Below, in pieces: positions 18,215-58,947 of a DNA stretch of 64,000 nt (positions are counted from its first letter, which is position 1; each line of letters starts with the position of its first letter). The notes under the pieces are model-generated. The model was given only the letters and a program-made list of their open reading frames with translations, made no database searches and was not told where the DNA came from. The translations under genes were made by a program, and so were the position numbers. The DNA comes from Ornithinimicrobium ciconiae. Lineage in GTDB: Bacteria > Actinomycetota > Actinomycetes > Actinomycetales > Dermatophilaceae. The stretch covers positions 3,782,001 to 3,846,000 of the forward strand of contig NZ_CP041616.1 of the NCBI RefSeq assembly GCF_007197575.1. The letters run 5' to 3'.

Positions 18215-18582
18215 GGCGATCCCATACGCGCAGCGGGCTCAAGGGCCGCCTCGACGCGCGCGTGGCCGCGCGGCAGCCCGGGTAGGTATCGGGTCCGGCC
18301 CGGTGCTGTCACGGCGACGACCGCCCTGTCCTCGTCGACGCTCACCTCGACGTCCGCACCTGGGGGCGCGGCCTGGCGGGCGATCTGCTCGACGATGCCT
18401 GAAGGCTCCCCACGTGCTGCGGCACGCACCGCGATCCGCGCCGCATCGACGCACCGCATCTGGTCAACAGCCAGACCGAGACCGCTCAGGCACAGCGCGA
18501 GCACCGCCACCAGGGCTGGGATGACGATGGCCAGCTCGGCGGTCACCATGCCGTCCTCGTGGCGGCGCCCGCACCCGCTCAC
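18211..18582 (-). CDS. TadE-family pilus assembly protein
   Basis: 123 residues from GTG 18582, whose GTGA overlaps the pilin stop codon (18579-18581). GMVTAELAIVIPALVAVLAL (residues 11-30) is the TadE-type cleavage signal and membrane helix; a small domain follows with paired-cysteine-free beta content. It is coupled to the pilin upstream and to the TadE-like gene downstream. Because the pilin gene has lost its 5' half here, expression of this coupled gene probably depends on readthrough from the element or a new promoter. Confidence 0.85.
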   Translation of the reverse strand: MSGCGRRHEDGMVTAELAIVIPALVAVLALCLSGLGLAVDQMRCVDAARIAVRAAARGEPSGIVEQIARQAAPPGADVEVSVDEDRAVVAVTAPGRTRYLPGLPRGHARVEAALEPAARMGSP

Positions 18583-18689
18583 AGCGAGACCGAGAGTGCT
18601 GCCTTGATGACCTTGGTCACCAGCGACTCGATCCCGCCGGACTGCACGATCGCCAGCATCACGGCGGCAAACGCGCAGGCTGCAATCGT
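18579..18689 (-). pseudogene. Flp-like (DUF4244) pilin gene, C-terminal half, cut at attL
   Basis: The minus-strand frame reads TIAACAFAAVMLAIVQSGGI and then ends ...KAALSVSL-stop, the hydrophobic helix and tail of a DUF4244/Flp-type pilin. There is no start codon. The missing N-terminus (AGMTTAEYAVGT) is found 40 kb away at 58,838-58,947. The break falls inside the codons for Gly-Thr-Ile/Met-Ala-Ala-Cys, at the serine-integrase crossover. Joining the two halves restores an ordinary pilin of about 70 residues. Confidence 0.88.
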
Positions 18690-18709
18690 CCCACGCGAAC
18701 TGCGTACTC
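18661..18709. other. attL of the integrative element
   Basis: The left junction has pilin coding sequence on the left and element DNA on the right, meeting at ATCGT (18685-18689). The element arm ends in GCGTACTC (18702-18709), whose last base is 24 bases from the first base of the core. The right junction has GAGTACGC at exactly the mirrored distance, so the reconstructed attP is a 49-bp imperfect palindrome centred on the core, as expected for a large serine integrase. The integrase gene begins 276 bp to the right. Confidence 0.8.
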
Positions 18710-18984
18710 AGCAGCGAGGCACCCACCACAGCCCGATGTGGCGTCAGCTGGCACACCCCAGATGACGTTGTTCGAACGCCCAGAGACGAACAGGCGACCT
18801 GTACCGAACCGTGGTGGCACAGGGCTCCCGTGAAGAAGAAGACACAAGACCACAACTGCCCTGTAATCGATCGCCATCCGAGGTACAGGCATGTCACCGT
18901 CCAGGCCCGCAGCACGGCAGACACAGGACAGCTCCAGCGTGTGGCCGCCCTCGTCACCACCGCCCGCGGGACGAGGCGGGCGTC

Positions 18985-20553
18985 GTGAGGGTCGTAACGT
19001 ACGCCCGGGTCTCGACGCAGGAGCAGGTCGAGCACGGCACCTCGCTGGAGGACCAGCGCAAACGTCTCGCGGCACGGGCAGTCGCGGACGGCCACCAGCA
19101 CGTCCAGCACTTCGAGGACGGTGGCCTGAGCGGAGGGTCGATGAATCGCCCCGGACTGACGGAGTTGCGGTCACTCGTCGCCAGGGGTGGGGTCGACGCA
19201 GTACTCGCCACCAAGATGGACCGAGTGGCGAGGAGCGTCCGCGACCTCGTGAACCTGCTCGAGGAACTCGCCGGGAACGGCTGCGCGGTAGCGTTCATCG
19301 ACGAGGGCATCGACACATCGACCGCGGCCGGAACGATGCACTCACAAATCCTGTCCGCGGTCGCGCAGTTCGAACGGAACCGTATCTCCGAGCGAACACG
19401 GTCAGGTCGACGTGCTGCGGCGGAGGCAGGCCGGTTCGTCGGGTCGACGCCGCCGTACGGCTACCGGGTCACGGGCGGTCACGGTGACCGGCACCTGGTA
19501 GTCGAGGAAACCCAGGCGCGGGCCATCCGACTCATCTACCGACGCCTGGTCGTCGAGCGGGTGCAGGCCAAGCACGTGGCCGCCGAGCTGAACGAGTCCC
19601 GGCTGCCCCCCGCGCTGAAGGACACATGGGACGCGGCCACATTGCGCCGTTGGGCGAAGGACGAGGGCCACATCCGCAACGCCGCCGGAACGTGGACGTT
19701 CGATGGTGTCGACGTTCCGATTCCCCCCATCCTCACACCCACCGAGGCGGCTGTGTGGCGGGCCTGGTCCTCCGAGTCTCGCTCGAACTTCCCCGCCCGC
19801 GCTCCCCAGACGTACCTCCTGAGCGACTTCGTCCGGATGCCGTGTGGCCGGCGTGCGATGGGGCGGACCGTCACGGGGCAGGAGCCGACGTACAGCTGCA
19901 GGGACCGGCTGACCGCAGGCGTGCCGGGCCACCTCGACTGCAAAAATCTGCACGCACCGACACTGGAAAGCACCGTCATCCACGAGGTGCGAGCACGCCT
20001 GCTCCAGCCTGCGGTTCTGCGAGCTGCGGTCTCCGGGGCCAGCCGTGGCGTCTCAGCCGGTACCCAGCTGGTGCAGCTGCAACAAGAGCTGGACTCGCTC
20101 GACGACAGCATTGCGGAGGAGATGGCTCTCCTGCGCGAGTCGGGTCTGCGTCGGGAGTCGGTGGCTCGTGTCCTCAGACCGCTCAAGGACCAGCAAGAGG
20201 GGCTGCAAGCCAAGGCGCGTGCCCTGAGACGCCGTCTGGCGGAGGAGGCTGCGGGCCCGGGGCCGAGGCAGATTCGCGAAGCGGTAGACCAGTTGAGTGC
20301 GGGCCTCGCCACTGACGAGCCGGCCCTCTGGCGTCAGGTACTCGACACGTTGAACGTCGTCGTCCACATCGTGGAGCACGTCGAGTGCGACGAGTGCGGC
20401 GGCAGCGGCTACCTGGCGCTGCCTCCAGGACAGGGACGCCGCTGGGCACAACGGTGTCCCGGTTGTCTCCGGGGGAAGGTGCCGGTACTGGAGATTGAGA
20501 TGGACGACGTCGTGGCCCTGGCGGTCGCTGACGGGCTGCAGGAGGTCGGCTAG
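18985..20553 (+). CDS. Large serine integrase
   Basis: 522 residues from GTG 18985. The resolvase catalytic domain has YARVSTQEQ with nucleophile Ser10 and the conserved MDRVARSVRDL and QFERNRISERTRSGRRAA. The recombinase domain follows (PPYGYRV..., about 150-260), then a zinc ribbon with paired Cys (CGRRAMG ... YSCRDR ... DCKN) and a coiled coil (about 355-440). An extra C-terminal module carries CDECGGSG and CPGCLRGK. This protein performs attP x attB integration, and excision with a directionality factor. It lies next to attL, the normal position. Confidence 0.95.
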   Translation: MRVVTYARVSTQEQVEHGTSLEDQRKRLAARAVADGHQHVQHFEDGGLSGGSMNRPGLTELRSLVARGGVDAVLATKMDRVARSVRDLVNLLEELAGNGCAVAFIDEGIDTSTAAGTMHSQILSAVAQFERNRISERTRSGRRAAAEAGRFVGSTPPYGYRVTGGHGDRHLVVEETQARAIRLIYRRLVVERVQAKHVAAELNESRLPPALKDTWDAATLRRWAKDEGHIRNAAGTWTFDGVDVPIPPILTPTEAAVWRAWSSESRSNFPARAPQTYLLSDFVRMPCGRRAMGRTVTGQEPTYSCRDRLTAGVPGHLDCKNLHAPTLESTVIHEVRARLLQPAVLRAAVSGASRGVSAGTQLVQLQQELDSLDDSIAEEMALLRESGLRRESVARVLRPLKDQQEGLQAKARALRRRLAEEAAGPGPRQIREAVDQLSAGLATDEPALWRQVLDTLNVVVHIVEHVECDECGGSGYLALPPGQGRRWAQRCPGCLRGKVPVLEIEMDDVVALAVADGLQEVG

Positions 20554-21299
20554 TGGTGTCGCAAACCCCACGGGACACGGTGGTCCGTTGGACCCAGACA
20601 CTCGTCGAACCACTCCTCCCCCTCGAGCAGAGAACCCAGCTCGAACACAAGATGCGGAGGATCTGCGCGGCCCACCCGGCCTGGGCGGCCATCACCATCG
20701 GCGGCACCATCGCCGACATCATGCAGTCCCTGCCGGACGACGACCCGTGGCGCAACTGCTCCGCCCGGATCGGCAAGATGACCACCGGCAGCCGGCCACC
20801 GGTGCGGGACGGCGCCAGGCTGCCGGCCGGTGGACGACTGGGCACCTGGTCCAGCTTCGTCGACACCCTCGGCCGGCCCAGTGAGGAGGACATCACCCTC
20901 GACCCGGCCTACATCCCGATAGCCACCAACCTGACCCCGGTCGCCGAGGCAGTCCTCGCCTTCGGGGCCGTCGGCTGGGAGGAGGCCAGCGCCGCCGTCG
21001 CCGCCACCACCGAACGCGGCGAGATCACCAGCGCCGTCGACGACCTGGCCAACCTGCCCGGCACCGCCACGCTGGTTCACGCCCCCGTCTACACCTACGG
21101 GGTGCCGGCGCTGAGGTGGGCGTCCTACCGCAGGCGCTCCTACGGCACCAGCCCGGACGACCCGTGGCTGGCCGAGGCGCTCTACCGGTGGTCCTGGCGG
21201 GCCGGGCGGATCCTCGGTGGGATGTCCTGGGACGAGAACATGGTCAGCGTCCGGATCGAGGCCGAGCGGCTCGACCCGATCCCCGACGAGCACTTCTGA
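20553..21299 (+). CDS. Hypothetical protein coupled to the integrase
   Basis: 248 residues; GTG start overlaps the integrase stop (TAGTG) with GGAGG ten bases upstream, so both are made from one message. It is soluble with no known motif; the N-terminus is helical (EQRTQLEHKMRRICAAHPAW) and later segments are rich in Asp/Pro/Trp. Genes coupled to serine integrases sometimes encode the directionality factor, and that is a guess for this one. It ends just before a strong terminator. Confidence 0.75.
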   Translation: MVSQTPRDTVVRWTQTLVEPLLPLEQRTQLEHKMRRICAAHPAWAAITIGGTIADIMQSLPDDDPWRNCSARIGKMTTGSRPPVRDGARLPAGGRLGTWSSFVDTLGRPSEEDITLDPAYIPIATNLTPVAEAVLAFGAVGWEEASAAVAATTERGEITSAVDDLANLPGTATLVHAPVYTYGVPALRWASYRRRSYGTSPDDPWLAEALYRWSWRAGRILGGMSWDENMVSVRIEAERLDPIPDEHF

Positions 21300-22768: not shown

Positions 22769-25700
22769 TCACAGTTTGGTAACGGTCTCCTGGGCGGCCG
22801 GCTCGGTGGTGTCAGTCTCGTCGGCCACGTCCCGCTGCAGCAGGGCGTCCAGCAGGATCGCCGTGCCGCTCACCGAGACCCCACCCGCCATGACCCGCTG
22901 CTGACCCTTGTTCGGCGTCCAGGCGTCAGAGCACAGCCCCTCGTCCCGGGCAGCCCGGAGGGAGTCCGGGAGCCGGGTGCCGTGGGGCAGGTGCCCGCCG
23001 TCGCGCAGCAGGACGGACGCCCCAGCCGTGTGATAGATCAGGACGCACCACCTGCGGCCACCCTCCGGCTCGCGCACCAGGCAGCCGACCGTCCTGCCGC
23101 GCGGAAGGGCAGCCTCGGGACGAAGGAAGGTTGGCTTGCCGGTCTCGTCCTTCTTGGCGGCCTCGTCCTTCTCGTCCTTCTTGGCGGTCTCGTCGTCCCG
23201 GTAGATATCCGCCTCGATAGCCGGGAGGTGCCAGCCCAGGGCCTGCCCCAGGGCGCCGTCACCCTCGGTGATGGACGGGCGCTCACCCGAGCCGGGCACC
23301 GCGATGTGGCACAGTCCGGCCGCCAGGTCAGCCCGCAGGGCAGTCAGTAGGGCCTGTCCGGGCGCCAGGTCACGGCTCGCCTCCATCTGCTTGAGCACCA
23401 GCGTGGCAAGAGCCTGCCGCCACTTGTAGATCCGCGACTCGTAGACCTCAGGGTCCAGGCCGACGTGGGCACACAGCTCGGCCAGCAGCTCCAGACCCAC
23501 CAGTAGGTCCCCCGCCTTCTCAGCGGCACGCCGGACCTCGTTCTCGCTGGCGCCGGCCCGGATCATCCCCTTCTCGACCCACTCGACCTCCTGGGCACGC
23601 CGCCACCGCCAGACCTCAGTGACCTCGGCCCACGTCTCCGGTCCGACCTCGCCGAGGACCATCTGGACGGCTGCGGTGAAAACGCGTGCCGGCGCCAGGC
23701 TGTCCGCGATCATGGCGTTCATCCGCTCCACCCCGGGTTTGCGCAGCTCGCCCTTGCCGTACGTCAGGGTCACGCAGCGGTCGAGGACGGATGAGACGCG
23801 CATGGTGTTCTCCATGGTCACCATGAGGACGGCGCGCGGGGGGTTCTCGGCGTAGCCCGTGCCGATACCACGGCGCCTGGCTGCCCTGTTGTGCACCGCC
23901 CGGATCACGTCTCCCAGCTTGGCCTCCGTGCCGTCACTGGCCTTCTTGTCCGTGGTGGGCGCCGCGTCGTCAGCCACCCAGAACGGGTGCAGGCTCACGT
24001 TCTGCTCGAGCCTCAGCGGGGTGTCGGAGGCGCCGCCCGTCAGGTGCTCACCGGCCCACACACCCAGGCCGGACCGGAAGAACTGGCTGGCGGCACGGGC
24101 ACTGTAGGACTTGCCCGACCGCCGCGCACCGACGTGGTTGACCACCGAGTTGGTCTCCACCGGGACCGCGGGGCGCAAGGGTGACGCCACCGTCACCGCA
24201 GCCTTGGCGGGGTCGGTCCACACCGAGTCGTAGACCTCAAGGACCTCGGTCAGGTCGGCGCGGATCTGGTCCTTGTCGATGCCGCCGGTCGGGCTGGTCG
24301 TCGGGTGCAGACCGAACTCGGCGGCCGCGGAGTCGAGCTCCGGGACGCCCGCACCGACCTTGTCCGTGAATCCGCCAGCTCCGACCACGCTATTACCCAT
24401 GACGTAAGCCATGGAACCGTCCGGGCACGGCACATACCCGCTCTGCATATACGTGGGAAGGTCCAGCCGGTCCTCAGGTCGGTGAGCCTTGGCGGCGCGG
24501 ATGACCTCCGGCGGCGGCGGCCAGTGGTCGACCGACGAAGCCTCCAGGTCAGCCGGGAGACCACGGGCGGCGTTCACGAACCGTGGCCCCTGCTCGGACA
24601 GCATGGAAATCGGCCCGTCGAACGTCGCCTCCCGTACCTGCCCGTCACGGGAGGACCGCCACGTGACGCCCATCCGGATGCCCGACTGGTACTGGCTCGT
24701 CGGCTTCGGCATGGTCGCCGACGCCACCTCAGCGTCGGTCGCCGTGTACCGGTCCCTCGTCTCGGCGATCCGCAGGGCGTAGGTCGAGTACTCCTCCCAC
24801 CGGCCCGGGTGACCCTCGGCGGCCTTGTAGACCTCGGTGATGCCCTGCTCCGGGCAGACCCTCAGGTCGCCGTCACGGGCAGGCGGGGCAGGCGGGGCAG
24901 GCAGGGTCTCGACGCACGTGTTGAGCAGAGCGTCCAGGCTCATCCCGGTCGCTGCCAGCATGTCGTCGGCACCGGCTTTCGGGTCGCCGTCCACGCAGGG
25001 CCGCAACAGAGCCACCCGGGCCCTCTTGTGCTCGAGCATGGACCAGAGCCCCGCTGCCTGACGGTGCACCTGGGCGTTCGTCGTGACGTCGGCGTCGAGG
25101 CAGATGTAGACGGCGCGGTCCCGCAGGTCGAGCCCGTTCCACTCGGAGTTGTGGTGCCAGTTCCCGACCCCGACGACACCCAGCACCAGGACACGCTGTC
25201 CGGTCGGCACGGACTCCATCAGGCCGTGCAGCCGGGCAGAGACGGTGCGGACAGCGGCACGGCGACCCTCGGCGGTCGGGGCGGCCAGGGCGTCACGCTC
25301 GGCGTCGGTCAGCAGCAGCGCCTCGCGCCCGTGGTAGCCATACAGGCAGGCCGTCAGGATGGACAGCGCCTTCATCATCCCCTCGGCGATGATGACGTCG
25401 CAGTCACCATCCAGCCAGGACGTCGGGGTGGACGGGTGCGCCGCGATGGGGGAGGTCCCGCCGGCCAGGCTGTCGTACTTCCTGGTCTTGCCGTCGATCA
25501 CGATGGGCTCTGACGGCCGCGCCTGGTGCATCTGTGCTGGCACCGGGTACCCGGGCGTCTTGCGGCTAGTCTCGGCCACCCGGGTCAGGGACGGCCACGG
25601 GAGGTACAGAGCGTCACCTGTGGCGGCGTTGCGTGCCAGGAAGCTCGTGCCCTTCGACCTGCTGTCACCCAGGGTCAGTGCCGGGACGGTCTGGGCGATC

Positions 25701-25891
25701 TCCTTCCGGTCACCATTCCGGACGGTCACCAGGCCCCCGGCGACAGCGACGATGGGGGCGACGGCGCTGGACGCGCACTTGGCGGCCCCGCTACCGGTGA
25801 TGCTCGGTCCGTACTCGGTCGACTCCCAGCCCGGCGTGGCTTCCACCACGGACAGGGCGGGCGTCGTACTCTCGGTGTGTGCAGTGGTCAT
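22769..25891 (-). CDS. Primase/helicase-type replication protein (TOPRIM plus P-loop ATPase)
   Basis: 1,040 residues. The N-terminal third carries a DUF3854-like TOPRIM domain: CDVIIAEGMMKALSILTA (catalytic Glu) and, later, YICLDADVTTN (Asp-x-Asp). The centre has a Walker A NHVGARRSGKSYSA near residue 590 with downstream ATPase segments (PPRAVLMVTMENTMRVSS). A Lys/Asp/Glu-rich linker (DDETAKKDEKDEAAKK) lies near 920. This is the arrangement of mobile-element primase-helicases that start and drive replication. It reads away from the iteron region at 26.2-26.6 kb, its likely origin. Confidence 0.8.
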   Translation of the reverse strand: MTTAHTESTTPALSVVEATPGWESTEYGPSITGSGAAKCASSAVAPIVAVAGGLVTVRNGDRKEIAQTVPALTLGDSRSKGTSFLARNAATGDALYLPWPSLTRVAETSRKTPGYPVPAQMHQARPSEPIVIDGKTRKYDSLAGGTSPIAAHPSTPTSWLDGDCDVIIAEGMMKALSILTACLYGYHGREALLLTDAERDALAAPTAEGRRAAVRTVSARLHGLMESVPTGQRVLVLGVVGVGNWHHNSEWNGLDLRDRAVYICLDADVTTNAQVHRQAAGLWSMLEHKRARVALLRPCVDGDPKAGADDMLAATGMSLDALLNTCVETLPAPPAPPARDGDLRVCPEQGITEVYKAAEGHPGRWEEYSTYALRIAETRDRYTATDAEVASATMPKPTSQYQSGIRMGVTWRSSRDGQVREATFDGPISMLSEQGPRFVNAARGLPADLEASSVDHWPPPPEVIRAAKAHRPEDRLDLPTYMQSGYVPCPDGSMAYVMGNSVVGAGGFTDKVGAGVPELDSAAAEFGLHPTTSPTGGIDKDQIRADLTEVLEVYDSVWTDPAKAAVTVASPLRPAVPVETNSVVNHVGARRSGKSYSARAASQFFRSGLGVWAGEHLTGGASDTPLRLEQNVSLHPFWVADDAAPTTDKKASDGTEAKLGDVIRAVHNRAARRRGIGTGYAENPPRAVLMVTMENTMRVSSVLDRCVTLTYGKGELRKPGVERMNAMIADSLAPARVFTAAVQMVLGEVGPETWAEVTEVWRWRRAQEVEWVEKGMIRAGASENEVRRAAEKAGDLLVGLELLAELCAHVGLDPEVYESRIYKWRQALATLVLKQMEASRDLAPGQALLTALRADLAAGLCHIAVPGSGERPSITEGDGALGQALGWHLPAIEADIYRDDETAKKDEKDEAAKKDETGKPTFLRPEAALPRGRTVGCLVREPEGGRRWCVLIYHTAGASVLLRDGGHLPHGTRLPDSLRAARDEGLCSDAWTPNKGQQRVMAGGVSVSGTAILLDALLQRDVADETDTTEPAAQETVTKL

Positions 25892-31555: not shown

Positions 31556-32613
31556 TGAGGGTCAGGGGAGTGGGACGACGGACCCGTGGAATGGCGGTCC
31601 GGCTGGCTATCGCAGCGGTCGTTGTGGCTCGACTGGCGTGGGCTGGTTGGGGTGTCCTGGCGCAGGCGCTGGACCCGGTCGCGGAGCTGGGGCGAGCCCG
31701 GCTGGTGGCTGGCATCCTGACCGGTCTGTGGCTGGCTGCGACGGTGGTTTCCTGGCGCCGCACGCTCGAGACACTGGCGCACGAAGCACACCACCATGGG
31801 AGTGCCGCCGGGACACGCGCGATGAGCCAGATTCTGAGGGTCGGGACCGTCGGCCAGTACGCCGCCGTGACGGCAACGAAGCTGGCGGCACGGGTCCTGG
31901 CGGGTCTGTCCCCGGTCGTCGCCGTCGGTCTGGCATCGCTGGTCTGGGCGTGGGTCGGGCTGGCTGGTTTCGGGCTGGCCGGGTGGGTGGCAGCGGCTGT
32001 CGTGTCGGCCGTCGCGGGCTGGACCCTGGCGCGGACTGTCGCGTCCTGGCAGGGGGTGGCCCTACGGTCGCTCACCGGGGCCGGGGTGCTGGCCGGCCTG
32101 GCCGGTGGGCTGGCTGTCGCGGTCGTGCCGCTGCTGGTCGGTGTGCCGATGAACGACCACGCCTGGGTGGGGACGAGCCTGGCCGGTGCGGTCCTGGTTG
32201 CCGGTCTGGTGAGCGGTCACGGACAGGGAGTGGTGCAGCGCCGGAAGCGTGCCGTAGCCGGTGAGCTGGCTGCTGTCCTCGGTGTCGCACAGAGCACTCT
32301 TGAGGACCCGGCTAAGGCACGGTGGAGCGTCAGCAAGGCTGGCACCGTTAATGTCCATCCTCCGCTGCCAGCCGACGTGGTGAAGAACCTGCCGGGTCTG
32401 GCCGAGCGGGTCGTGCTCCACCTCCCCAGCCATGAGGTGGAGTACGCCGACCCGCACGACGGCGTGGTCCTGGTGCAGGTTCGTGAGGAGACCGCGCAGA
32501 CCCGGGCACTGCTCGCTCAGACAGGCGGGCTGCTGACCTCACTGGCCGAGCACGACACCCCCACCCCGACCGTCACGATCACCGCCGAAGACCTGGAGAC
32601 CAGTCATGTCTGA
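31555..32613 (+). CDS. Multi-pass membrane protein of the transfer operon
   Basis: 352 residues from ATG 31555. About six hydrophobic helices in the first 235 residues (for example AIAAVVVARLAWAGWGVLAQ and GLAGFGLAGWVAAAVVSAVA), then a cytoplasmic C-terminal domain of about 115 residues with EVEYADPHDGVVLVQV. It overlaps the FtsK gene by eight bases. Likely the membrane partner of the translocase in the mating pore. Confidence 0.7.
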   Translation: MRVRGVGRRTRGMAVRLAIAAVVVARLAWAGWGVLAQALDPVAELGRARLVAGILTGLWLAATVVSWRRTLETLAHEAHHHGSAAGTRAMSQILRVGTVGQYAAVTATKLAARVLAGLSPVVAVGLASLVWAWVGLAGFGLAGWVAAAVVSAVAGWTLARTVASWQGVALRSLTGAGVLAGLAGGLAVAVVPLLVGVPMNDHAWVGTSLAGAVLVAGLVSGHGQGVVQRRKRAVAGELAAVLGVAQSTLEDPAKARWSVSKAGTVNVHPPLPADVVKNLPGLAERVVLHLPSHEVEYADPHDGVVLVQVREETAQTRALLAQTGGLLTSLAEHDTPTPTVTITAEDLETSHV

Positions 32614-34186
32614 GCTGACAATTCCACTGCCTGAGGCCTACCACCCGCGTGAGCACAGGGACCGGGTCGCAGGACTCATCGCCTGTCGCGCACCCGGCTA
32701 CGTGACCACCCGGGTGGACGCCGAGTCACGGACGGCGTGGGCGTCACCGACCCTGCCGGGGAAAGTCGACGGCACCCTGTCTGAGAACTGTCGGGTGCAG
32801 GACCTGGACACCCTGGCGGTGCGTGTTGCTGACCAGGGCCTGGTGCTGTCGGGCGCCGACGTGCCAGCGCGGTCGGTCACTCTCGCACGGCTCACCCCGG
32901 CGCAGCAGACAATCCGGTCACGCATCGCTACGCGCCTGCGCTGCCAGCCGTGGGAGGTTGAGCTGGCGATCGGCGCGCGCGGCACTGGCGAGGTCACCGA
33001 TGTGGTCGTGACGCGCTGGCCGGATGCTGGTATGCCTGCCGCGAAAGCCCAGGAGCTCTGGCTGGAGGTCGCCCGGCAGGTGGTGGGCCACCCCGGCTGG
33101 ACCCGGCGGATCGTTGGTCAGCGGGTCGAGATGCACTCCGAGCCGCGGCCGACGTGGCCCAATATCCCAGTCCCGTGGGATGAGATCAGGGCCGCACCGT
33201 GGCACCGGCTGTTCCTGGGCCATGATGAGAAGCAGCGTCCGGTGTGGGGCGACCTCACAGCGACGCCGCAGGCCATGGTGACCGGGCGGACTGGCAGCGG
33301 CAAGAGCGTGATGCTGGAGCTGATGCTGTGCGGGATGCTGCTGCGCGGTTGGGACCTGCGGGTGTGCGAACCAGTGAAGTCAGGCTTGGACTTCCGTCAC
33401 CTGAGGCCGTTCTGCTCCCGCTGGGCCACCACCCGTGTCGAGGTCGCCGAGGTGATGACCGAGCTGGCAGCCGAGATTGACCGGCGCCTGGCGGTCATGC
33501 TTGAGCACGGCGCGCCCCGCTGGGATGAGCTGCCCGAAGCGGTTCGCGAGACTGAGGGAATCCACCCGATCTGTGTTGTGCACGACGAACTGGAATCGGC
33601 CGCCCAGGAGATCCAGACAGCGGGGTTGCGCGGCGCCGAGCTGATGCGGGCACAGACAGACGCTGAGGCCGTCATGACTACCCGCGCCCTCTACTCCCGG
33701 CTGCTGCGGGAGGCCCGGTATGTCGGTATCCACCTGGTCCTGAGCACCCAGCGCTGGACGAATGAAGCTCTGGGCTCGGCGGCGTCGGGCTGGCGGGCCA
33801 ACGCCGGTCTGCGGATCGCGATGGGCCGGATGAACTTGACCACCTTGTCCACCTCGATCCTGGAGGTTGACGCCTGCCAGGTGGCCTACGAGCGGGCGTT
33901 CGGTGCTCTCGGGTCCGACGGTGACGAGCCAGACGATGACCCGGTGCCGATCAAGGGCCGGGGCATCGTGGAGCTCGATTACGCGGACCCGGTGAGCTTC
34001 CAGACCCCGTGGCCCGGGACCCACGCAGAGCAGGCGGCGATGCTGCGGTCTCACGGTGTTCCTGAGCGGGAGCAGATGACGCTGGTCCCGCAGTTCGGTC
34101 CGCCGCCCGGGTTCGGTCAGGACGCCGTGAAGGACCTGGGCACCTTGGATGACCTCGACCTCGACCTTGCGGACCTGGAGGGGTGA
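32606..34186 (+). CDS. FtsK/SpoIIIE-type conjugal DNA translocase (TraB/TraSA-like)
   Basis: 526 residues. The ATPase core has Walker A VTGRTGSGKSVMLELML (about 226-242) and Walker B HPICVVHDELESA. Between them lies VCEPVKSGLDFRHLRPF, a normal feature of AICE FtsK-like proteins, and later ARYVGIHLVLSTQRW. No obvious N-terminal membrane helices; the preceding membrane proteins may anchor it. In Streptomyces-type elements one such protein moves double-stranded DNA between mycelia or cells without a relaxase. Confidence 0.9.
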   Translation: MSELTIPLPEAYHPREHRDRVAGLIACRAPGYVTTRVDAESRTAWASPTLPGKVDGTLSENCRVQDLDTLAVRVADQGLVLSGADVPARSVTLARLTPAQQTIRSRIATRLRCQPWEVELAIGARGTGEVTDVVVTRWPDAGMPAAKAQELWLEVARQVVGHPGWTRRIVGQRVEMHSEPRPTWPNIPVPWDEIRAAPWHRLFLGHDEKQRPVWGDLTATPQAMVTGRTGSGKSVMLELMLCGMLLRGWDLRVCEPVKSGLDFRHLRPFCSRWATTRVEVAEVMTELAAEIDRRLAVMLEHGAPRWDELPEAVRETEGIHPICVVHDELESAAQEIQTAGLRGAELMRAQTDAEAVMTTRALYSRLLREARYVGIHLVLSTQRWTNEALGSAASGWRANAGLRIAMGRMNLTTLSTSILEVDACQVAYERAFGALGSDGDEPDDDPVPIKGRGIVELDYADPVSFQTPWPGTHAEQAAMLRSHGVPEREQMTLVPQFGPPPGFGQDAVKDLGTLDDLDLDLADLEG

Positions 34187-36166: not shown

Positions 36167-38116
36167 GTGTCTCAGTTGGCCAATTTTGTCTGGGGCATCG
36201 CTGACCAGTTGCGTGGGGTGTACAAGCCGAATTCGTACGGCGACGTGATCCTGCCGATGACGATCTTGCGGCGGATGGAGTGCGTGATGGAACCGCACCG
36301 CGCAACCATCACCCAGTTGGCGAAGGTCGGGCGTCCGGACACCCTCGAGCTCCTGGTTCGTGACCAGACCGGTTTGACGTTCTACAACACCTCCCCCTAT
36401 TCGCTGGCCACGATCCTGGAAGAGCCCGAGAACCTGGCCGGCAACCTGAACGCCTACCTGGACGGGTTCTCAGGCAACGTTGCCGACCTCTTCGCGGCCT
36501 ACAAGTTCGACCGTGAGATCGAGACTCTGGACAACAGCGACCGGCTGTACCTGGTTCTGGACAAGTTCTCCCGTGTGGACCTTGGCCCGGATGCTCTGAC
36601 GAACGCCCAGATGGGCACCATGTTTGAGGACCTGATCCGCCGGTTTGCTGCCGCGTCGAACGAGACTGCTGGTGAGCACTTCACGCCTCGTGACGCGGTC
36701 CGACTGCTGGTCGACCTTCTTGTCGAACCGGACGGGGACGTGCTGACCGGGTCTGTGGTCCGCACCGTGTATGACCCGACGGCCGGCACTGGTGGGATGC
36801 TCTCGGTCCTGGACGAGCGGCTCACGGAGATGAACGACAGGGCCCAGGTGGTGATGTACGGCCAGGAGCTGAACGCCCAGTCCTATGCCATCTGCAAGTC
36901 CGAGCTGATCGGTAAAGGCCAGGACGCGGACAACATCGCTCTTGGAGACACGCTGGCCAACCCTCAGCACTACGACCAGCGGTTCGACTACGTCCTGTCC
37001 AATCCTCCCTACGGCGGCGACTGGAAAGCCTCCCAGGCGCAGGTGCTCGCCGAGGTCGACAAGCTCGGTGACAACTCTCGCTTCCCGGGTGGCACTCCGG
37101 CGATCAGTGACGGCCAGATGTTGTTCTTGCAGCTGGTCGCCACCAAACTGCGCCCGGCCTCTGAGGGTGGAGGGCGTGCCGGGATTGTCCTGAACGGCTC
37201 CCCGCTGTTCACCGGCGGCGCCGAGTCCGGACCGTCAAACATCCGCCGCTGGTTACTCGAGTCCGACCTGGTCGACGCAATCGTGGCCCTACCGACCGAC
37301 ATGTTCTACAACACCGGCATCGCCACCTACATGTGGGTGCTGGACAGCGCCAAGGCCGACGAGCGTAAGGGCAAGGTCCAGCTGATCGACGCCCGTGAGT
37401 TCTTCACCAAGCTGCGCCGCAACCTCGGTTCCAAGAACAAGGAGATCGGGGACTCTGACCGGGCCCGCATCTTGCGGATCTACAGCAACTTCGACGAGCA
37501 GACCGAGGACGATCAGCGGTACTCGAAGGTGCTCGAACCGGCCGACTTTGGGTACCACGAGATCACCGTCGAGCAGCCTCTCCAGCTGCGGTTCGAGGTC
37601 ACCGACGACGCCCTGGCCGCGGTGACCGCCACCAAACAGGTCGACAAGCTGTCCGAAGAGAACCGTGCCGCGCTCTTGGCCGGGCTGGAGACCCTGCGTG
37701 GTCAGACCTGGATGGACCGATCGAGCTTCGTCACCGCGCTGCGCAAGGCCAGCAAGGACGCCGGGTTCACCCTGCCGACGCCGCTGGTCAAGGTGCTCTG
37801 GTCCAAGATCGGTGTGCACGACGACGACGCCGTCATCTGCCGCGACAAGCACGGCGACCCCGAACCGGACACCGACCTGCGCGACACCGAAATCGTCCCC
37901 TTCGACCGCGACATCACCGACTACTTCGACACCGAGGTCAAGCCGCACGTCCCCCTCGCCTGGATCGACCACGCCAAGACCAAGGTCGGCTACGAGATCC
38001 CCTTCACCCGGATCTTCTACAAGTACGTACCGCCCCGCCCGCTCGAGCAGATCGACGCCGAACTCGACGAACTGGCCACCGAGATCGTCCAGCTCCTGCG
38101 GAAGGTTGAGGCGTGA
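36167..38116 (+). CDS. hsdM: Type I restriction-modification methyltransferase subunit
   Basis: 649 residues from GTG 36167 (GGAGG nine bases upstream). The N-terminal HsdM domain (FVWGIADQLRGVYKPNSYGD) precedes the N6-adenine methylase core with SAM motif YDPTAGTGGMLSVLDE and catalytic SNPPYGGDWK. The C-terminal region is long for the family and helical. It methylates adenine in the host copy of the recognition site and forms the M2S complex with HsdS. First of a tight three-gene operon with 4-bp and 1-bp style overlaps. Confidence 0.95.
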   Translation: MSQLANFVWGIADQLRGVYKPNSYGDVILPMTILRRMECVMEPHRATITQLAKVGRPDTLELLVRDQTGLTFYNTSPYSLATILEEPENLAGNLNAYLDGFSGNVADLFAAYKFDREIETLDNSDRLYLVLDKFSRVDLGPDALTNAQMGTMFEDLIRRFAAASNETAGEHFTPRDAVRLLVDLLVEPDGDVLTGSVVRTVYDPTAGTGGMLSVLDERLTEMNDRAQVVMYGQELNAQSYAICKSELIGKGQDADNIALGDTLANPQHYDQRFDYVLSNPPYGGDWKASQAQVLAEVDKLGDNSRFPGGTPAISDGQMLFLQLVATKLRPASEGGGRAGIVLNGSPLFTGGAESGPSNIRRWLLESDLVDAIVALPTDMFYNTGIATYMWVLDSAKADERKGKVQLIDAREFFTKLRRNLGSKNKEIGDSDRARILRIYSNFDEQTEDDQRYSKVLEPADFGYHEITVEQPLQLRFEVTDDALAAVTATKQVDKLSEENRAALLAGLETLRGQTWMDRSSFVTALRKASKDAGFTLPTPLVKVLWSKIGVHDDDAVICRDKHGDPEPDTDLRDTEIVPFDRDITDYFDTEVKPHVPLAWIDHAKTKVGYEIPFTRIFYKYVPPRPLEQIDAELDELATEIVQLLRKVEA

Positions 38117-39402: not shown

Positions 39403-42400
39403 TGGCACAGCACAACGAGAAGCCGTTCGAGGACGAACTGTGCGCCTATCTGGCCGCGCGTGGGTGGTTGTACTCGCCGAACGATGACGGGTATGACCGG
39501 GGGCGGGCGCTGTTCCCGGAGGATCTGTTGGGCTGGTTGGAGGACACCCAGCCTGTGACGTACGCGGGCATTGTGAAGCCGTCGATGTCGGAGAAGGAGG
39601 CCCGCGGCGCGCAGGACAAGATCCTGGACCGGGTCGTGAAGGTGCTGGACACCCCGTTGACCTCAGACGGTGGGACGTTGAACCTGTTGCGGGGCGGGTT
39701 CAAGGTCGGCACGTCGAAGCGGTTGGACATGTCGTATCCCCGGCCGGCGACATCGTTGAACCCGAAGGCTGCCGAGCTGTACGGCAGGACCCGGGTTCGG
39801 GTGATGCGGCAGGTTCACTTCGCCACGGCCGGGAACCACACGGTCGACATGGTGCTGTTCATCAATGGGCTCCCGGTGGCGACGGTGGAGCTGAAGACTG
39901 ACTTCACCCAGAGCGTCGACGAGGCGATGGCCCAGTACCGGCGACGAGACCCGCGGTCCTCTCCTCTGTTCGGATGGGGTACTCGTGCGGTGGTGCACTT
40001 CGCGGTGTCGAACGCCGAGGTGTGGATGACCACCAAGCTCGCAGGCCCTGACACCCGGTTCCTGCCGTTCAACCGTGGTGATGACGGCCATGCCGGGAAC
40101 CCGCGCCACCCGGGCGGTTCAGACACGGCCTACCTGTGGGAGCGAGTGTGGGACAAGGACACCTGGCTGGACATCATCCTGCGATTCGCACACGTTGAGA
40201 CGTCGACCCACCTGGACGCCAACGCCCGACCGGTGAAGTCCTCGACGTTGATCTTCCCGCGATTCCACCAGTGGGAGGCAGTCACCGAGGTCCTGGCCGA
40301 TGCCCGGACCAACGGTGCCGGCCAGTCGTACCTGATCGAGCACTCGGCCGGGTCCGGCAAGACGCGCACGATCGCCTGGACCGCGCACCGGTTGCTGTCT
40401 CTGCACGACGAAGCCGATCAGAAGATCTTTGACTCGGTGATCGTGGTGACCGACCGGACCGTGCTGGATGACCAGTTGCAGGCCGCGGTTAAGCAGATCG
40501 AGCGGACCACCGGCACGGTCCTGGCGATCGACCGCAAGGCCTTGGGCGCACACGGTGCCACGTCCAAGTCCCAGTTGCTGCAGCATGGCCTGCTGGGTGG
40601 CCGCAAGATCATCGTCGTCACGCTGCAGACTTTCCCGGCCGTCCTAGAGCTCCTGAACGACGACAGCACGTTGGCCGGGCGCCGGTACGCAGTCATCGCC
40701 GACGAAGCCCACTCCTCCCAAACAGGTTCCGCGGCAACGAAGCTGAAGAAGGTTCTGACACCCAGCGAGCAAGCCGACCTGGATGACGGCGGCGAGGTAG
40801 ACACCGAAACCCTGCTGGCCGCCGAGATGGAGGGACGGGCACGACCGGAGCACATCAGTTTCCTGGCGTTCACCGCGACCCCGAAAGGCAAGACGCTGCA
40901 GCTGTTCGGCCGGCCCGGTGAGGACGTCGACGAGCGAGGCAACCCGATCCCCGTCTCGTTCCACCTGTACCCGATGCAGCAGGCCATCGAAGAGGACTTC
41001 ATCCTCGACGTGTTGCGGAACTTCACGAACTACGACACCGCGTTTCAACTGGCCATCAAGGTCGAACAAGGCGACATGGTCCTGACCGGTCACGACCCGG
41101 ACGACGACACCGTGTTGGTCGATCAGCACGCCGCCACAAAGGGCCTCATCCGGTGGGTGAAGCTGCACCCGACGAACATCGCTCAGAAGGTCCAGATCAT
41201 CGTCGAGCACTACAGGGCCAACATCGCCCACCTGCTCGATGGCAAGGCCAAGGCCATGGTGGTGACCGACTCCCGCAAGGCCGCCGTCCGCTACAAGACC
41301 GCGATGGACGCCTACATCACCAAGATGGGCTACAAAGGCCTGTCCACGCTCGTCGCCTTCTCGGGTGACGTCGACGACCCGGAGACCGGACCGAACCCGT
41401 TCACCGAAGCCAACATGAACCCTGGGGTCACAGGCAACCTGGCCGCCGCGTTCGCCACCGACGGCTTCCAGGTGATGATCGTCGCGAACAAGTACCAGAC
41501 CGGGTTCGACCAGCCCCTGTTGTGCGCCATGTACGTGGACCGGCAGCTCTCTGGGGTGACCGCGGTGCAAACCCTGTCCCGGCTCAACCGGACCTTTCCA
41601 GGCAAGTCCGACACCTACGTGCTGGACTTCGTCAACAGCGAGGAAGAGATCCTGGAGGCGTTCAAGCCCTACTACGCCGGCGCCGAACTGGCCGCGGTCA
41701 CCGATCCAGACCTGATCCACGACTTGCAGGGCAAACTCGACGCCTCTGGCATGTACACGACCGAGGAGGTGGACGCGGTCGTCGACGCCTGGGTGCGCCA
41801 GAAGGGCAACAACGCGATCACCGGTGCGCTGGGCCCGATCGTGCACCGCTTCCGGTCCGACTATCAGACCGCCATGCAACGCGAGGACAAGGCCCGCCTG
41901 GACGAGCTGGACCTGTTCCGCAAGGACCTGCGCAGCTTCATCAACCTGTACGACTTCCTGTCCCAGATCGTCGAGTTCGGCGACACCGAGCCGTTCCGCC
42001 GCTCGATCGCCTACCGACTGCTCGAGCCGCTCATCCACGTCCGCAACCACAGCGAGATCACCGACCTGTCTGGCGTGGATCTGGTCGCCATCACCCAGAA
42101 GCACAAGAGCACCTCTGACCTGGTCATCGAGGAGACCAAACCAGTCCGCCCCGTTACTGCGGCTGGTTCGGGCACCGTCCGGGAGATCAAGAAGGGCCCG
42201 TTGGCGGAGGTCATCGAGCGGCTCAACGAGATCTTCGGCGGCGAGGACTTCAGCACCGACCAGCAGGAGACCTGGCTGGAAGGACTCATCCGGTCTCTCA
42301 TGAGTGACGAGCAGGTCCGCGAACAGGCTGAGCACAACAGCAAGGGCCAGTTCCTGGCAAGCCCCACCCTGCGCACCAAGGTCCTCCTCGCCGTCTTCAA

Positions 42401-42515
42401 GAACCAAGCCGCGCACGAGAAGATGAGCCAGATCATCCACCAAGGCGGCCAACCCGAAAAGGTCCTGGTCGAGATGCTCGGCGAACTGATCCACCACCTG
42501 GTACGCGAAGAGTAG
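39402..42515 (+). CDS. hsdR: Type I restriction endonuclease motor subunit
   Basis: 1,037 residues from ATG 39402 (TGATG overlap with hsdS). The N-terminal nuclease domain shows the PD-(D/E)xK core as VDMVLFINGLPVATVELKTD (ELK). The translocase follows with Walker A EHSAGSGKTRTIAWTAHRL, DEAH box IADEAHSSQTG, motif III SFLAFTATPKG, and helicase C-terminal motif YQTGFDQPLLCAMY / QTLSRLNRTFPGK. Complete in length and motifs, so active restriction is expected. Confidence 0.95.
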   Translation: MAQHNEKPFEDELCAYLAARGWLYSPNDDGYDRGRALFPEDLLGWLEDTQPVTYAGIVKPSMSEKEARGAQDKILDRVVKVLDTPLTSDGGTLNLLRGGFKVGTSKRLDMSYPRPATSLNPKAAELYGRTRVRVMRQVHFATAGNHTVDMVLFINGLPVATVELKTDFTQSVDEAMAQYRRRDPRSSPLFGWGTRAVVHFAVSNAEVWMTTKLAGPDTRFLPFNRGDDGHAGNPRHPGGSDTAYLWERVWDKDTWLDIILRFAHVETSTHLDANARPVKSSTLIFPRFHQWEAVTEVLADARTNGAGQSYLIEHSAGSGKTRTIAWTAHRLLSLHDEADQKIFDSVIVVTDRTVLDDQLQAAVKQIERTTGTVLAIDRKALGAHGATSKSQLLQHGLLGGRKIIVVTLQTFPAVLELLNDDSTLAGRRYAVIADEAHSSQTGSAATKLKKVLTPSEQADLDDGGEVDTETLLAAEMEGRARPEHISFLAFTATPKGKTLQLFGRPGEDVDERGNPIPVSFHLYPMQQAIEEDFILDVLRNFTNYDTAFQLAIKVEQGDMVLTGHDPDDDTVLVDQHAATKGLIRWVKLHPTNIAQKVQIIVEHYRANIAHLLDGKAKAMVVTDSRKAAVRYKTAMDAYITKMGYKGLSTLVAFSGDVDDPETGPNPFTEANMNPGVTGNLAAAFATDGFQVMIVANKYQTGFDQPLLCAMYVDRQLSGVTAVQTLSRLNRTFPGKSDTYVLDFVNSEEEILEAFKPYYAGAELAAVTDPDLIHDLQGKLDASGMYTTEEVDAVVDAWVRQKGNNAITGALGPIVHRFRSDYQTAMQREDKARLDELDLFRKDLRSFINLYDFLSQIVEFGDTEPFRRSIAYRLLEPLIHVRNHSEITDLSGVDLVAITQKHKSTSDLVIEETKPVRPVTAAGSGTVREIKKGPLAEVIERLNEIFGGEDFSTDQQETWLEGLIRSLMSDEQVREQAEHNSKGQFLASPTLRTKVLLAVFKNQAAHEKMSQIIHQGGQPEKVLVEMLGELIHHLVREE

Positions 42516-46490: not shown

Positions 46491-47054
46491 ATGACGGGGC
46501 AGATTGTCGCGTACGTCCGGGTGAGCAGCACCGACCAGCGGACTGACCGCCAGGACGTCGGGCAGGTTGGGCGGCTCTTCGAGGATCACGTGTCCGGCGG
46601 CAGCACTGACCGGCCGGCGTTCCTCGAGATGATGGGCTACCTGCGGGACGGCGACACCCTCCGGGTCTGGTCCATGGATCGCCTGGCCCGCTCACTGCTC
46701 GACCTGGTGACCACTGTGCAGGACCTGGTCGGACGTGGCGTCACCGTCGAGTTCATCTCCGAGCGGCTGATCTTCAAACCCGGTGCGGACGACCCCTACG
46801 CCACGTTCCAGCTCCAACTACTCGGATCTGTCGCTGAGCTCGAGCGGGCACTGATCCGGCAGCGGCAACGCGAAGGCATCGAGAAGGCCAAGGCGCGCGG
46901 GGTCTACCGGGGACGGGCACCGAAGCTGGCCGCCGAGCAGGTTGCCAAGGCGCAGGCCCGAGTCGCCGCTGGGGTCCCGAAGGCCCGTGTGGCGAGGGAG
47001 CTGGGGTGCGGCCGGGCGACGCTGTACCGCGCGCTGGAGTCCGCGGGTGTCTGA
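46491..47054 (+). CDS. Small serine resolvase/invertase
   Basis: 187 residues. Catalytic N-terminal domain with YVRVSSTDQRT (nucleophile Ser12), SMDRLARSLLDLV and QRQREGIEKAKARGVYRGR, then a Hin-like helix-turn-helix (KARVARELGCGRATLYRALE). Full length for the resolvase/invertase family, so probably active. No paired res or inversion site is obvious next to it. Overlaps the next gene by eight bases if that gene starts at GTG 47047. Confidence 0.9.
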   Translation: MTGQIVAYVRVSSTDQRTDRQDVGQVGRLFEDHVSGGSTDRPAFLEMMGYLRDGDTLRVWSMDRLARSLLDLVTTVQDLVGRGVTVEFISERLIFKPGADDPYATFQLQLLGSVAELERALIRQRQREGIEKAKARGVYRGRAPKLAAEQVAKAQARVAAGVPKARVARELGCGRATLYRALESAGV

Positions 47055-48669: not shown

Positions 48670-49215
48670 TCAGCGCACCGCCCGGTAGACCGTCGCGCGG
48701 CTCACTGCCAGGATCGCAGCGACCTCGCTCACTGGCTGGCCCTTCTCGATCCGTGTCTTGGCGTCAGCGACCTGCTTGGCGGTCAGGGCACGGGGACGAC
48801 CACCACGCTGGCCCGGTCCTCGAGCAGCCAGAGCCTCCTGGGTGCGGGCAGCGATCAGTGCAGCCTCCATTTCAGCGAAAACCCCGCCCACCTGCAGCAT
48901 GGCTCGGCCCATCGGGGTGCTGGTGTCGATGCCGTGGTCCAGCACCCGCAGTGACGCCCCGACCTGCTCTGTGGCCTCCATGACCTGCACCAGCCCACTG
49001 AGCCGTCGGGCGATCCGGTCAACGCGCGTGGTGACCAAAACGTCACCCTCCCGCAGCGTCCTGATCGCCTGCTCGAGCTGCGGACGAGGCTTCTTGCCGG
49101 ACACCTTCTCGGTGTAGATGTGCCGGTCTTCGACGCCCGCCCCACGGAGGGCCAGGACCTGCGTGCTGAGGTCCTGACCCTCCGTGGACACCCTCGCGTA
49201 TCCGATAAGCGTCAT
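48670..49215 (-). CDS. Small serine resolvase/invertase
   Basis: 181 residues: YARVSTEGQDL with nucleophile Ser10, TTRVDRIARRLSGLVQVMEA and EMEAALIAARTQEALAAR, then the HTH GQPVSEVAAILAVSRATVYR. Second complete resolvase of the element. ATGA overlap with the alkB gene upstream, so they share a message. Confidence 0.9.
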   Translation of the reverse strand: MTLIGYARVSTEGQDLSTQVLALRGAGVEDRHIYTEKVSGKKPRPQLEQAIRTLREGDVLVTTRVDRIARRLSGLVQVMEATEQVGASLRVLDHGIDTSTPMGRAMLQVGGVFAEMEAALIAARTQEALAARGPGQRGGRPRALTAKQVADAKTRIEKGQPVSEVAAILAVSRATVYRAVR

Positions 49216-56089: not shown

Positions 56090-56114
56090 CGCGCTTCTCC
56101 TCACCTCGTAGACA

Positions 56115-56267
56115 TCAAACCCGCAGGTCAGAACGGGAGTACGCTGACCAACATGCCGCCATCGTGCCGACGGCGTACTCCGCCGTTGTCATCCCCGCTT
56201 CCCGTGCGGCCGACAGCGACTCGCTCAGCCGGCGCCACCCGTGACGCCGCTCCACTGACTTCCTCAT
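56115..56267 (-). pseudogene. Foreign copy of the pilin N-terminal half at attR
   Basis: ATG 56267 opens MRKSVERRHGWRRLSESLSA then AREAGMTTAEYAVGTMAAC, the leader and first helix residues of a DUF4244 pilin. After the crossover it runs into element DNA and stops at 56115 (50 codons). It differs at several residues from the genuine N-terminus at 58,838-58,947, so it came from another host, not from a local duplication just now. Confidence 0.8.
56137..56185. other. attR of the integrative element
   Basis: Element arm GAGTACGC (56137-56144), core ATCGT (56161-56165), then pilin coding sequence, which itself contains GCGTACTC (56173-56180). The first base of GAGTACGC is 24 bases before the first core base, mirroring attL. 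Together with attL this gives the attP palindrome and an attB inside the pilin helix codons. Confidence 0.8.
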
Positions 56268-56775: not shown

Positions 56776-56952
56776 ACCCACCCGTACCTGCCTCAAACTC
56801 CAAACGCCGACGCTCCACCACCTTCCGGGCATCAGCCAGCGCCTCGTCCGGCTCGAGCATCTTGAGACCGTCACGCGTTTCCGATAGTGCTGTCGACCTG
56901 CCCTCAAGGATCAGCGGCTCGCAAAGCACGGCGGTGACTCCCGCACCGAGGC
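56776..56952 (-). pseudogene. HEPN-like gene fragment, middle and C-terminal part
   Basis: Minus-strand frame with LCEPLILEGRSTALSETRDG then EPDEALADARKVVERRRLEF, ending at a stop near 56776. It corresponds to the C-terminal two thirds of the 55739-56089 family. Its N-terminal part is 1.6 kb away (58579-58745). The joined frame upstream is not real coding for this family. Confidence 0.6.
56851..56952 (+). repeat. 102-bp direct repeat, left copy
   Basis: Identical to 58579-58680 over 102 bp (begins GCTCGAGCATCTTGAGACCG, ends GACTCCCGCACCGAGGC). The two copies bracket the 1.6 kb cassette inside the HEPN-like pseudogene. Confidence 0.9.
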
Positions 56953-57802: not shown

Positions 57803-58431
57803 TCAGAATGGACGCGAGGATCGGCACTGGATAGTCGAACCGCCCTTGACGTCATACCACCAGAGCGTTCGCCCGGACGAGCATATTCCATTCCTAAGCA
57901 CGTACGCTGTCCCTACCGCAACTGCAACCGAGGCAACACCGCAAGCTAGCCATCCGACAAATGGAAAGGCACAGATGGCTACCGTGAGTGCAGCAGCCGC
58001 ACCGCTACCCAGCATCTGTTGCTCAGTAGTGTTGAAACCGATCGCAACACGGCTGCCCTTGAGCCGCACTGAGATGTTAGGCTCCATTCCCGCCTCCGAG
58101 CCCACGGTTCCGCTAACCTCACCCTCGGACGTGGACGCGGCAGCTTCTATCGCCGCGGAGCTTGGTAGGGTTAACTGCCCTTCGGGTAGAATGTATGTGT
58201 ATCCTGCAATAGATCCCGCTGCGGCTACTTTCCGGGGTATGGGTGATGCCTCCAATTCCTGTAGCCCTTCAATGAAGGTCGCATGCTCAAGAAATTGCGA
58301 CCCTCCAGGGTAGATCTTGTCAATTTCCTCGTCTGATATGAACTCCCCAGAGGGGTCAACAGGACTGACAACGGCAAGAGTTCGTGAGTCGTCGACTTTG
58401 CCTTCATCTGCAACAGCTGTCCCGTGCCGGA
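57803..58431 (-). pseudogene. Truncated membrane-protein gene of the cassette
   Basis: The minus-strand frame codes for an acidic, secreted-looking part (VVSPVDPSGEFISDEEIDKI, EGQLTLPSSAAIEAAASTSE) and two hydrophobic segments (GSGAAAALTVAICAFPFVGW, ACGVASVAVAVGTAYVL), then a Cys-containing tail ending CRSSRPF. It has no start of its own: to the right the frame runs into an inverted piece of the HEPN-like gene and stays open to 58657, a chimera. The original 5' end was lost. The residual 3' part could be from a bacteriocin-like or surface protein; unproven. Confidence 0.55.
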
Positions 58432-58513
58432 TGAGGCGCTTGCTGATGCCCGGAAGGTGGTGGAGCGTCCGCGTTTGGAGTTCGAGGCAGGTACGGGTGG
58501 GTGAAGGCGGAGA
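58425..58513 (+). repeat. Inverted copy of the HEPN-like gene C-terminus
   Basis: On the + strand these bases encode DEALADARKVVERPRLEFEA then a stop, the inverse of 56761-56850 with only a few differences. With the 102-bp direct repeat it shows the cassette arrived together with duplication and inversion of its target. Confidence 0.8.
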
Positions 58514-58578
58514 CTTGACTTGGCCCACCGGGCGACACGGTGGAAAGTGCCGCCGGCCCGGGAGGCACTGAAGGGGGG

Positions 58579-58680
58579 GCTCGAGCATCTTGAGACCGTC
58601 ACGCGTTTCCGATAGTGCTGTCGACCTGCCCTCAAGGATCAGCGGCTCGCAAAGCACGGCGGTGACTCCCGCACCGAGGC
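58579..58680 (+). repeat. 102-bp direct repeat, right copy
   Basis: Identical to 56851-56952. It continues on its right into the N-terminal part of the HEPN-like pseudogene, whereas the left copy continues on its left into the C-terminal part. Confidence 0.9.
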
Positions 58681-58745
58681 GCTCATAAACTGGGCTGGGC
58701 TACCAGCCGTGGGCGTGCAGGACCGCGACGTCCGCCATGACGACG
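58579..58745 (-). pseudogene. HEPN-like gene fragment, N-terminal/middle part
   Basis: The minus-strand frame reads ADVAVLHAHGW, a TAG stop, then a frame with LGAGVTAVLCEPLILEGRST. It corresponds to the 55739-56089 gene from about residue 35 onward, is cut at 58579 by the cassette, and has an internal stop, so it is dead. It lies just inside the second attR, as the intact gene lies just inside the first. Confidence 0.65.
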
Positions 58746-58791
58746 ACCCGACGCCGCTAGGCTGGCTGAGGTGGTCCTCGCCTCGTAGCCA

Positions 58792-58947
58792 TCATAATCG
58801 CAGGCCAGAACGGGAGCATGCTGACCAACATGGAGCCATGGTGCCCACGGCATACTCCGCCGTGGTCATCCCCGCCTCTCGCGCCGCCGACAGCTGCCTG
58901 CTCAGTCGCCGCCAGCCGTGACGCCGGTCCAGTGATGTCCTCATCAT
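58792..58947 (-). pseudogene. Genuine Flp-like (DUF4244) pilin gene, N-terminal half
   Basis: ATG 58947 (or 58944) opens MMRTSLDRRHGWRRLSRQLS then AAREAGMTTAEYAVGT: a charged leader, the prepilin-peptidase-type G/MTTAEY site and the start of the pilin helix. At 58,838 it crosses into element sequence and stops at 58792. The rest of the pilin is at 18579-18689. It is next to the intact SIP gene and so is the native chromosomal half. Confidence 0.85.
58814..58860. other. Second attR-type junction (older element)
   Basis: GAGCATGC (58814-58821) is 24 bases before the core ATGGT (58838-58842), the same geometry as attR but with changed arm and core bases. The sequence between arm and core (TGACCAACATG) is nearly the same as at 56145. 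It marks an earlier integration of a related element at the same pilin site. Confidence 0.65.

Follow-up and report, generated by a model that had tools for sequence, protein, structure and literature searches.

The 64,000-nucleotide stretch of Ornithinimicrobium ciconiae analysed here (contig NZ_CP041616.1, positions 3,782,001 to 3,846,000; the window in what follows) carries a DUF4244 (Flp/Tad) pilin gene that lies on the minus strand in two pieces, the N-terminal half at 58,838 and the C-terminal half from 18,686. The interval between them very probably consists of one or more accreted integrative elements, members of a family in which the large serine integrase takes the DUF4244 pilin gene as bacterial attachment site (attB). 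The genome (G000) is a complete single-contig assembly of 4.09 Mb and falls in the same genus group as Ornithinimicrobium cavernae (G007), which is one of five further hosts of the same arrangement. The features at the break are as follows, with protein lengths in amino acids (aa).

18579..18686, minus strand: C-terminal pilin half (IAACAFAAVMLAIVQSGGIESLVTKVIKAALSVSL), matching PF14029
18685..18709, no strand: attL, the AT dinucleotide at 18,685-18,686 and the element arm ending in GCGTACTC
18982..20553, plus strand: large serine integrase of 523 aa, reading away from attL; resolvase domain PF00239, E 1.5e-40
56137..56162, no strand: inner attR, from the arm GAGTACGC to the AT dinucleotide at 56,161-56,162
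56161..56267, minus strand: diverged second copy of the pilin N-half (MRKS...GMTTAEYAVGT), which has a separate attR
58814..58839, no strand: outer attR, from the arm GAGCATGC (58,814-58,821) to the AT dinucleotide at 58,838-58,839
58838..58947, minus strand: native N-terminal pilin half (MMRTS...GMTTAEYAVGT), cut off at the AT of the outer attR

In the alignment with the intact locus of a relative, G018, the window segments 18,021-18,694 and 58,841-58,998 adjoin with an overlap of 8 bp, and therefore the two pieces represent one gene split by insertion; G018, G014 and G019, in which the locus is intact, all match both flanks of the break without a gap. The C-half opens at 18,686 with IAACAFAAVMLAIVQSGG, finishes in ...SVSL and matches PF14029 with 38.6 bits (positions 21-54), while the outer N-half matches it with 29.4 bits (positions 5-26), and the scores of all the pilin halves (38.6, 32.2 and 29.4) exceed the curated cut-off of 27 bits. 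The processing site G/XXXXEY before the hydrophobic stretch is present as GMTTAEYAVGT in both N-halves, and the cut falls on the first codon after AEYAVGT, which is ATC (Ile) in the window genus and CTC or CTT (Leu) in the other hosts. Joined at the shared AT, the flanks give an in-frame pilin of 71 aa. In the window as it stands, the truncated product of the N-half runs about 15-20 residues into non-pilin sequence and then stops; as far as the sequence tells, the DUF4244 pilin product must be impossible to make with the element in place. The C-half remains under purifying constraint, with proportions of synonymous and non-synonymous differences of pS 0.43 and pN 0.027 between G000 and G018, which means either that the insertion is recent or that the gene has been repeatedly restored, and the data fit both.

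These results bear out the core of the first-pass annotation of this DNA, which had placed the two halves of one DUF4244 pilin here, had recognised a serine-integrase element as what interrupts them, and had expected precise recombination to rebuild a pilin of normal length, as the in-frame join at the AT does on paper. It had also named in advance, as the case that would speak against it, uninterrupted relatives without a pilin gene at this locus; G018, G014 and G019 all carry one.

The reading frame of the integrase in the window is open and full length, with an N-terminal resolvase domain and a long C-terminal region, within the size of its class (about 450-700 aa); the recombinase domain PF07508 reached 22.1 bits in the genome search, where the cut-off is 21.1, and was absent from hmmscan at E 0.001. 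With a profile built from three sequences and a threshold of E<=1e-60, members of the family were found in six of the 186 genomes of the host family (G000, G007, G013, G128, G135 and G191), and these same six are the genomes with a split pilin; full coincidence by chance would have a probability of 3e-11 under independence of the genomes, an assumption that does not hold. In all six hosts the integrase adjoins the C-half, although the palindromic AT alone would leave the orientation unset in the window genus. The targeting is old and conserved, because five of the integrases share only 38-72% pairwise identity. In a sample of the order (396 genomes) the integrase occurred only in G000 and G135; among the genomes searched the family looks confined to the host family, and by its sequence record it is dedicated to the pilin. 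A scan of named genomes with two narrow peptide patterns returned one locus, in O. cavernae.

As regards the pilin itself, PF14029 was matched in all 58 relatives, of which three are split (G000, G007 and G013), 54 have strong near-full-length matches and one, G037, has a single weak partial match. Over the 186 family genomes it was matched in 172, the six with the split giving weak halves only, and not matched in 14. The insertions differ widely in length, being 24.1 kb in G013, 12.7 kb in G007, about 72.9 kb in G128 and about 161.4 kb in G135, while in G191 the pilin halves lie on two separate contigs. No close phage relative of the integrase was found among 545 phage records, all of them below 60% identity and the best among the matches listed at 28.5%; plasmid matches, in at least 5000 records, were all below 60% identity among the matches listed, IMG/VR gave 38 loci at 26-37% identity, and the exact attR pattern had no match in viral contigs.

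At the attachment sites, AT or CT is the sole sequence common to all attL/attR pairs while the arms differ, which is the pattern of a serine integrase. Joining at this dinucleotide gave a full-length, in-frame pilin in five of five genomes and for six of six attR copies (G000 with both N-halves, G013, G007, G128 and G135), and in G191 the C side is in frame (GTLAACSFAAV). In G128, G135 and G191 the homologous position carries a Leu codon, and CT takes the place of AT as the shared dinucleotide. Moreover, CATGT stands at an equal distance from the dinucleotide in all seven attR arms, and five of the six reconstructed attP sites are imperfect inverted repeats (P<=0.031 versus shuffles). Position 56,137 of the window carries GAGTACGC and position 18,702 its complement, and the 19-base attR arm has two matches at zero mismatches, against 0.06 expected with up to three mismatches. 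As an exchange dinucleotide, the inferred AT is unusual for a directional serine integrase in being palindromic; in the other genera of the family it is CT.

On these sites the first-pass annotation needs correction, since it had missed the second N-half at 56,098-56,306. The core ATCGT that it gave to both ends is indeed found in attL (18,685-18,689) and in the inner attR (56,161-56,165), but at 58,838 the outer site has ATGGT instead, and with both N-half copies considered AT alone is common to the sites. Its spacing of 24 bases between arm and core holds for all three arms, measured from their AT, but the coordinates of one copy had been paired with the att sequence of the other; the outer att pair as it was written is thus rejected, core and arm belonging to the inner copy. 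An attP forming a 49-bp palindrome was overstated, the window reconstruction being an imperfect inverted repeat with 11 of 23 arm positions and a 1-bp offset.

The second N-half is 83% identical to the native copy over 212 columns, and brings with it about 450 bp of chromosomal flank that is about 79% identical to the upstream region of G019, the intergenic part being nearer to G019 than the host's own copy is. By this comparison it probably came from another lineage; no near-identical donor was found in the 186 family genomes, the best being G019 with 79% over 450 bases. Between the two N-halves, 56,850-56,952 is repeated unchanged and directly at 58,578-58,680 (100%), and 56,754-56,855 is repeated inverted at 58,423-58,524 (93%); these repeats are remnants of element ends, the trace of a local inversion or insertion. 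With a second N-half that has its own attR, and with these remnants, the window insertion is composite, measuring 37.5 kb to the inner attR and 40.15 kb to the outer one.

Accretion may also have taken place in G128. Its insertion encodes a TrwC relaxase with a coupling protein and, in addition, motor (T2SSE) and membrane (T2SSF) genes of Tad-like type (G128:C78, 33,396-73,127), and may be more than one element. The pilin-type integrase recurs in a second, broken copy at G128:C78:24,345-25,472, which shares 88% identity with its counterpart at attL and suggests the accretion of two elements. The pilin site looks like a hot spot of element accretion.

In O. cavernae a second gene of the locus is interrupted as well: an insertion of about 11 kb (G007:C1, about 55,000-66,300) divides tadA between GEVRGAE and VREMM. 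The integrase of this insertion is a different, distantly related serine integrase of 524 aa with resolvase, recombinase and zinc-ribbon domains. As a general target tadA is not supported, for the insertion occurs only in G007 among 31 genomes of the genus. In G025 (G025:C1:346,936-347,963) and G008 (G008:C1:2,549,877-2,550,703) tadA shows up as two neighbouring pieces that overlap, perhaps through frameshifts or assembly errors.

Besides the integrase, the window element carries the following genes.

20553..21299, plus strand: 248-aa protein of no known family, directly after the integrase; 68% identical relative in the G013 element
22769..25891, minus strand: 1040-aa protein with a sub-threshold DUF3854 match; 36% relative in the G013 element
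32606..34186, plus strand: FtsK/SpoIIIE-type ATPase, a possible DNA-transfer translocase; PF01580, E 3.8e-11
36167..42515, plus strand: type I restriction-modification genes hsdM, hsdS and hsdR (cargo)
46491..47054, plus strand: small serine resolvase, common to the G013 and G007 elements
48670..49215, minus strand: second small serine resolvase

The G013 element has the resolvase and the 248-aa and 1040-aa types of protein in common with the window, together with a type I restriction-modification system. Among the window proteins scanned, no replication initiator or transfer gene was found at a curated cut-off, DUF3854 being only sub-threshold, and the FtsK-type ATPase scored 27 bits against the 800 of the NCBIfam model TraB. 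An ATPase of this FtsK/SpoIIIE type is also a feature of the actinomycete integrative and conjugative elements (AICEs), whereas the G128 insertion has instead a TrwC relaxase with its coupling protein. An AlkB-like 2OG-Fe(II) oxygenase (49,212-49,829, E 1.2e-34) lies as cargo beside a small resolvase, and the G007 element holds a candidate defence gene (L037:11059-12087) with DUF3644 and HEC-08 matches at E about 1e-16.

The split pilin sits in a tad locus, with tadA, tadB, tadC and tadE-type genes spread over both of its flanks.

17825..18214, minus strand: TadE/G-like gene; weak Pfam match, E 0.0012, below the curated cut-off; its start overlaps the tadE stop (ATGA)
18211..18549, minus strand: tadE; weak Pfam match, E 0.0049, below the curated cut-off
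61732..62352, minus strand: tadC-like gene (T2SSF)
62349..63077, minus strand: tadB-like gene (T2SSF)
63081..64000, minus strand: tadA ATPase (T2SSE), uninterrupted, running on to about 64,214 past the window end

The genes tadE and TadE/G-like stand downstream of the pilin C-half, and their coupling, which had already been proposed, is confirmed by the overlap in ATGA, with Pfam matches that are weak. Upstream of the pilin, tadC, tadB and tadA are set apart from it by three genes, one Dps-like, one for an FAD oxidase and a small one without a known family, and the same neighbours occur in G018 and G019.

As a mechanism, we propose that recombination of attP with attB across the AT (or CT) dinucleotide would insert the element, that the insertion would part the promoter and the leader with its EY motif from the body of the pilin and so leave a cell without DUF4244 pilin, and that recombination of attL with attR, helped by a putative excision factor, could restore it. 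What this may bring to the element is suggested by Micrococcus luteus, where deletion of flp or tadA abolishes pili and transformation, and where the authors expect transformation to depend on Flp pili in other actinobacteria too (PMC4322843). Its locus is likewise of the tadA-tadB-tadC-flp-tadE type, and the Flp site G/XXXXEY corresponds to GMTTAEY of the window; it differs in having no mobile element in the Flp locus. As the Flp pilin and tadA are essential for transformation in M. luteus, we infer that the elements are best understood, as to function, as actinobacterial counterparts of the comYC and comK prophages, which block DNA uptake. The presence of ComEC in five of the six hosts and the second serine-integrase element, in tadA of G007, agree with this reading.

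For comYC, one report describes prophages of streptococci and Lactococcus at an orthologous pilin-gene site across species, with related integrases (about 51% identity for one pair), and reads prophage insertion in comYC, comK, comFA and comM as the element's defence against curing by transformation (PMC4774983). The window family resembles them in being a mobile element at an orthologous pilin-gene site, with related integrases and loss of the pilin. The differences are that comYC belongs to the competence pseudopilus of Firmicutes and its elements are prophages, whereas here the target is an actinobacterial Flp/Tad pilin, no phage identity was detected and the loss of DNA uptake is inferred. 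The benefit to the element would then be that loss of the Tad pilus blocks DNA uptake and guards the element against replacement by transformation, an idea that we find plausible while holding it tentatively. A wider proposal, which calls for still greater reserve, is that the Tad pilus serves the whole phylum as its machine for DNA uptake and that actinobacterial elements have for this reason evolved integrases dedicated to it; insertions in the pilin and, by a separate integrase, in tadA would then block transformation and curing, and an insertion such as that of G128, with relaxase and Tad-like motor, could replace the host pilus with one of the element's own.

Several observations weigh against these proposals. 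ComEC was not found in G191, and another Flp_Fap pilin, a possible substitute, exists in G007, G013, G128 and G191, with none in G000 and G135. To our knowledge, none of the six hosts is known to be transformable. The genomes G157-G160 have a single weak pilin match each, with the integrase absent from all four; the tadA-splitting integrase was found in just one of the 186 family genomes; and the attP reconstructed from G013 is no more symmetric than shuffles (P 0.36).

In regard to novelty, the large serine recombinases treated by Durrant et al. are similarly site-specific with one conserved coding target (PMC10083194), and the words pilin, pilus, DUF4244 and Tad are absent from the main text of that paper. 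The first-pass annotation had held integration into a Tad pilin to be undescribed, which stands in so far as the matches listed in the open-licence literature included no description of an element within a Flp/Tad pilin or DUF4244, and needs qualifying in that the kind of event is known from comYC and comK. What appears new is the choice of target, together with an integrase family dedicated to it and the occurrence of two hits within a single tad locus.

Other explanations for the choice of this gene must be weighed. The site may be a neutral safe harbour, taken since conservation of the EYAVGT(I/L)AAC codons is very high and the cell can do without the pilus, so that blocking the pilus brings no gain; this is a possibility to be taken seriously, though we doubt it. 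In its favour, the motif is kept in every intact relative among those listed, and conserved coding sequences are common serine-integrase targets; against it, the same survey reports competence genes as enriched among the target genes (PMC10083194). A second type of element in the same tad locus of G007 also speaks against neutrality.

The comK prophage of Listeria likewise lies inside a competence gene whose frame is recoverable by excision, and that excision is regulated. By analogy with it, or with skin, the elements here could form a regulated switch, as the first-pass annotation had suggested, in which signal-driven excision restores the pilin gene and cells pass back and forth between having pili and lacking them. 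The att sites and the integrase look intact, the joins are in frame, and the pilin halves and neighbouring tad genes are still open and constrained. Nevertheless we consider such a switch unlikely: the complete assembly holds the integrated state only, recent insertion explains the constraint equally well, the two attR copies would yield two different products, and in G007, with tadA also broken, excising one element would not restore the pilus. In addition, no excision (recombination directionality) factor turned up, with no search aimed at one.

Pili can serve as phage receptors, and loss of the pilus might therefore exclude superinfecting phages and protect element and host together. The type I restriction-modification systems in the window and G013 elements would suit such a role, but no pilus-dependent phage of these hosts turned up, no search having been aimed at such phages, and we regard this as quite improbable. 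That the split is an error of assembly, or a pair of unrelated pilin fragments, has practically no chance of being right; the duplicated N-half, as a sign of local rearrangement, might point that way, but the idea is ruled out by the exact empty-site match and by the same cut with the same integrase in six genomes.

Should the parallel with the comYC and comK prophages be true, the conflict between mobile elements and transformation, as seen in comYC, comK and comM, would reach the actinobacteria and their distinct Flp/Tad uptake pilus, and the insertions would provide a genomic test of DUF4244 pili as uptake machines in species never tested. Function aside, the family represents a group of serine integrases with a single conserved coding target and att sites defined in six hosts, which makes it of practical use as a site-specific tool and of interest for the question why elements single out pili.

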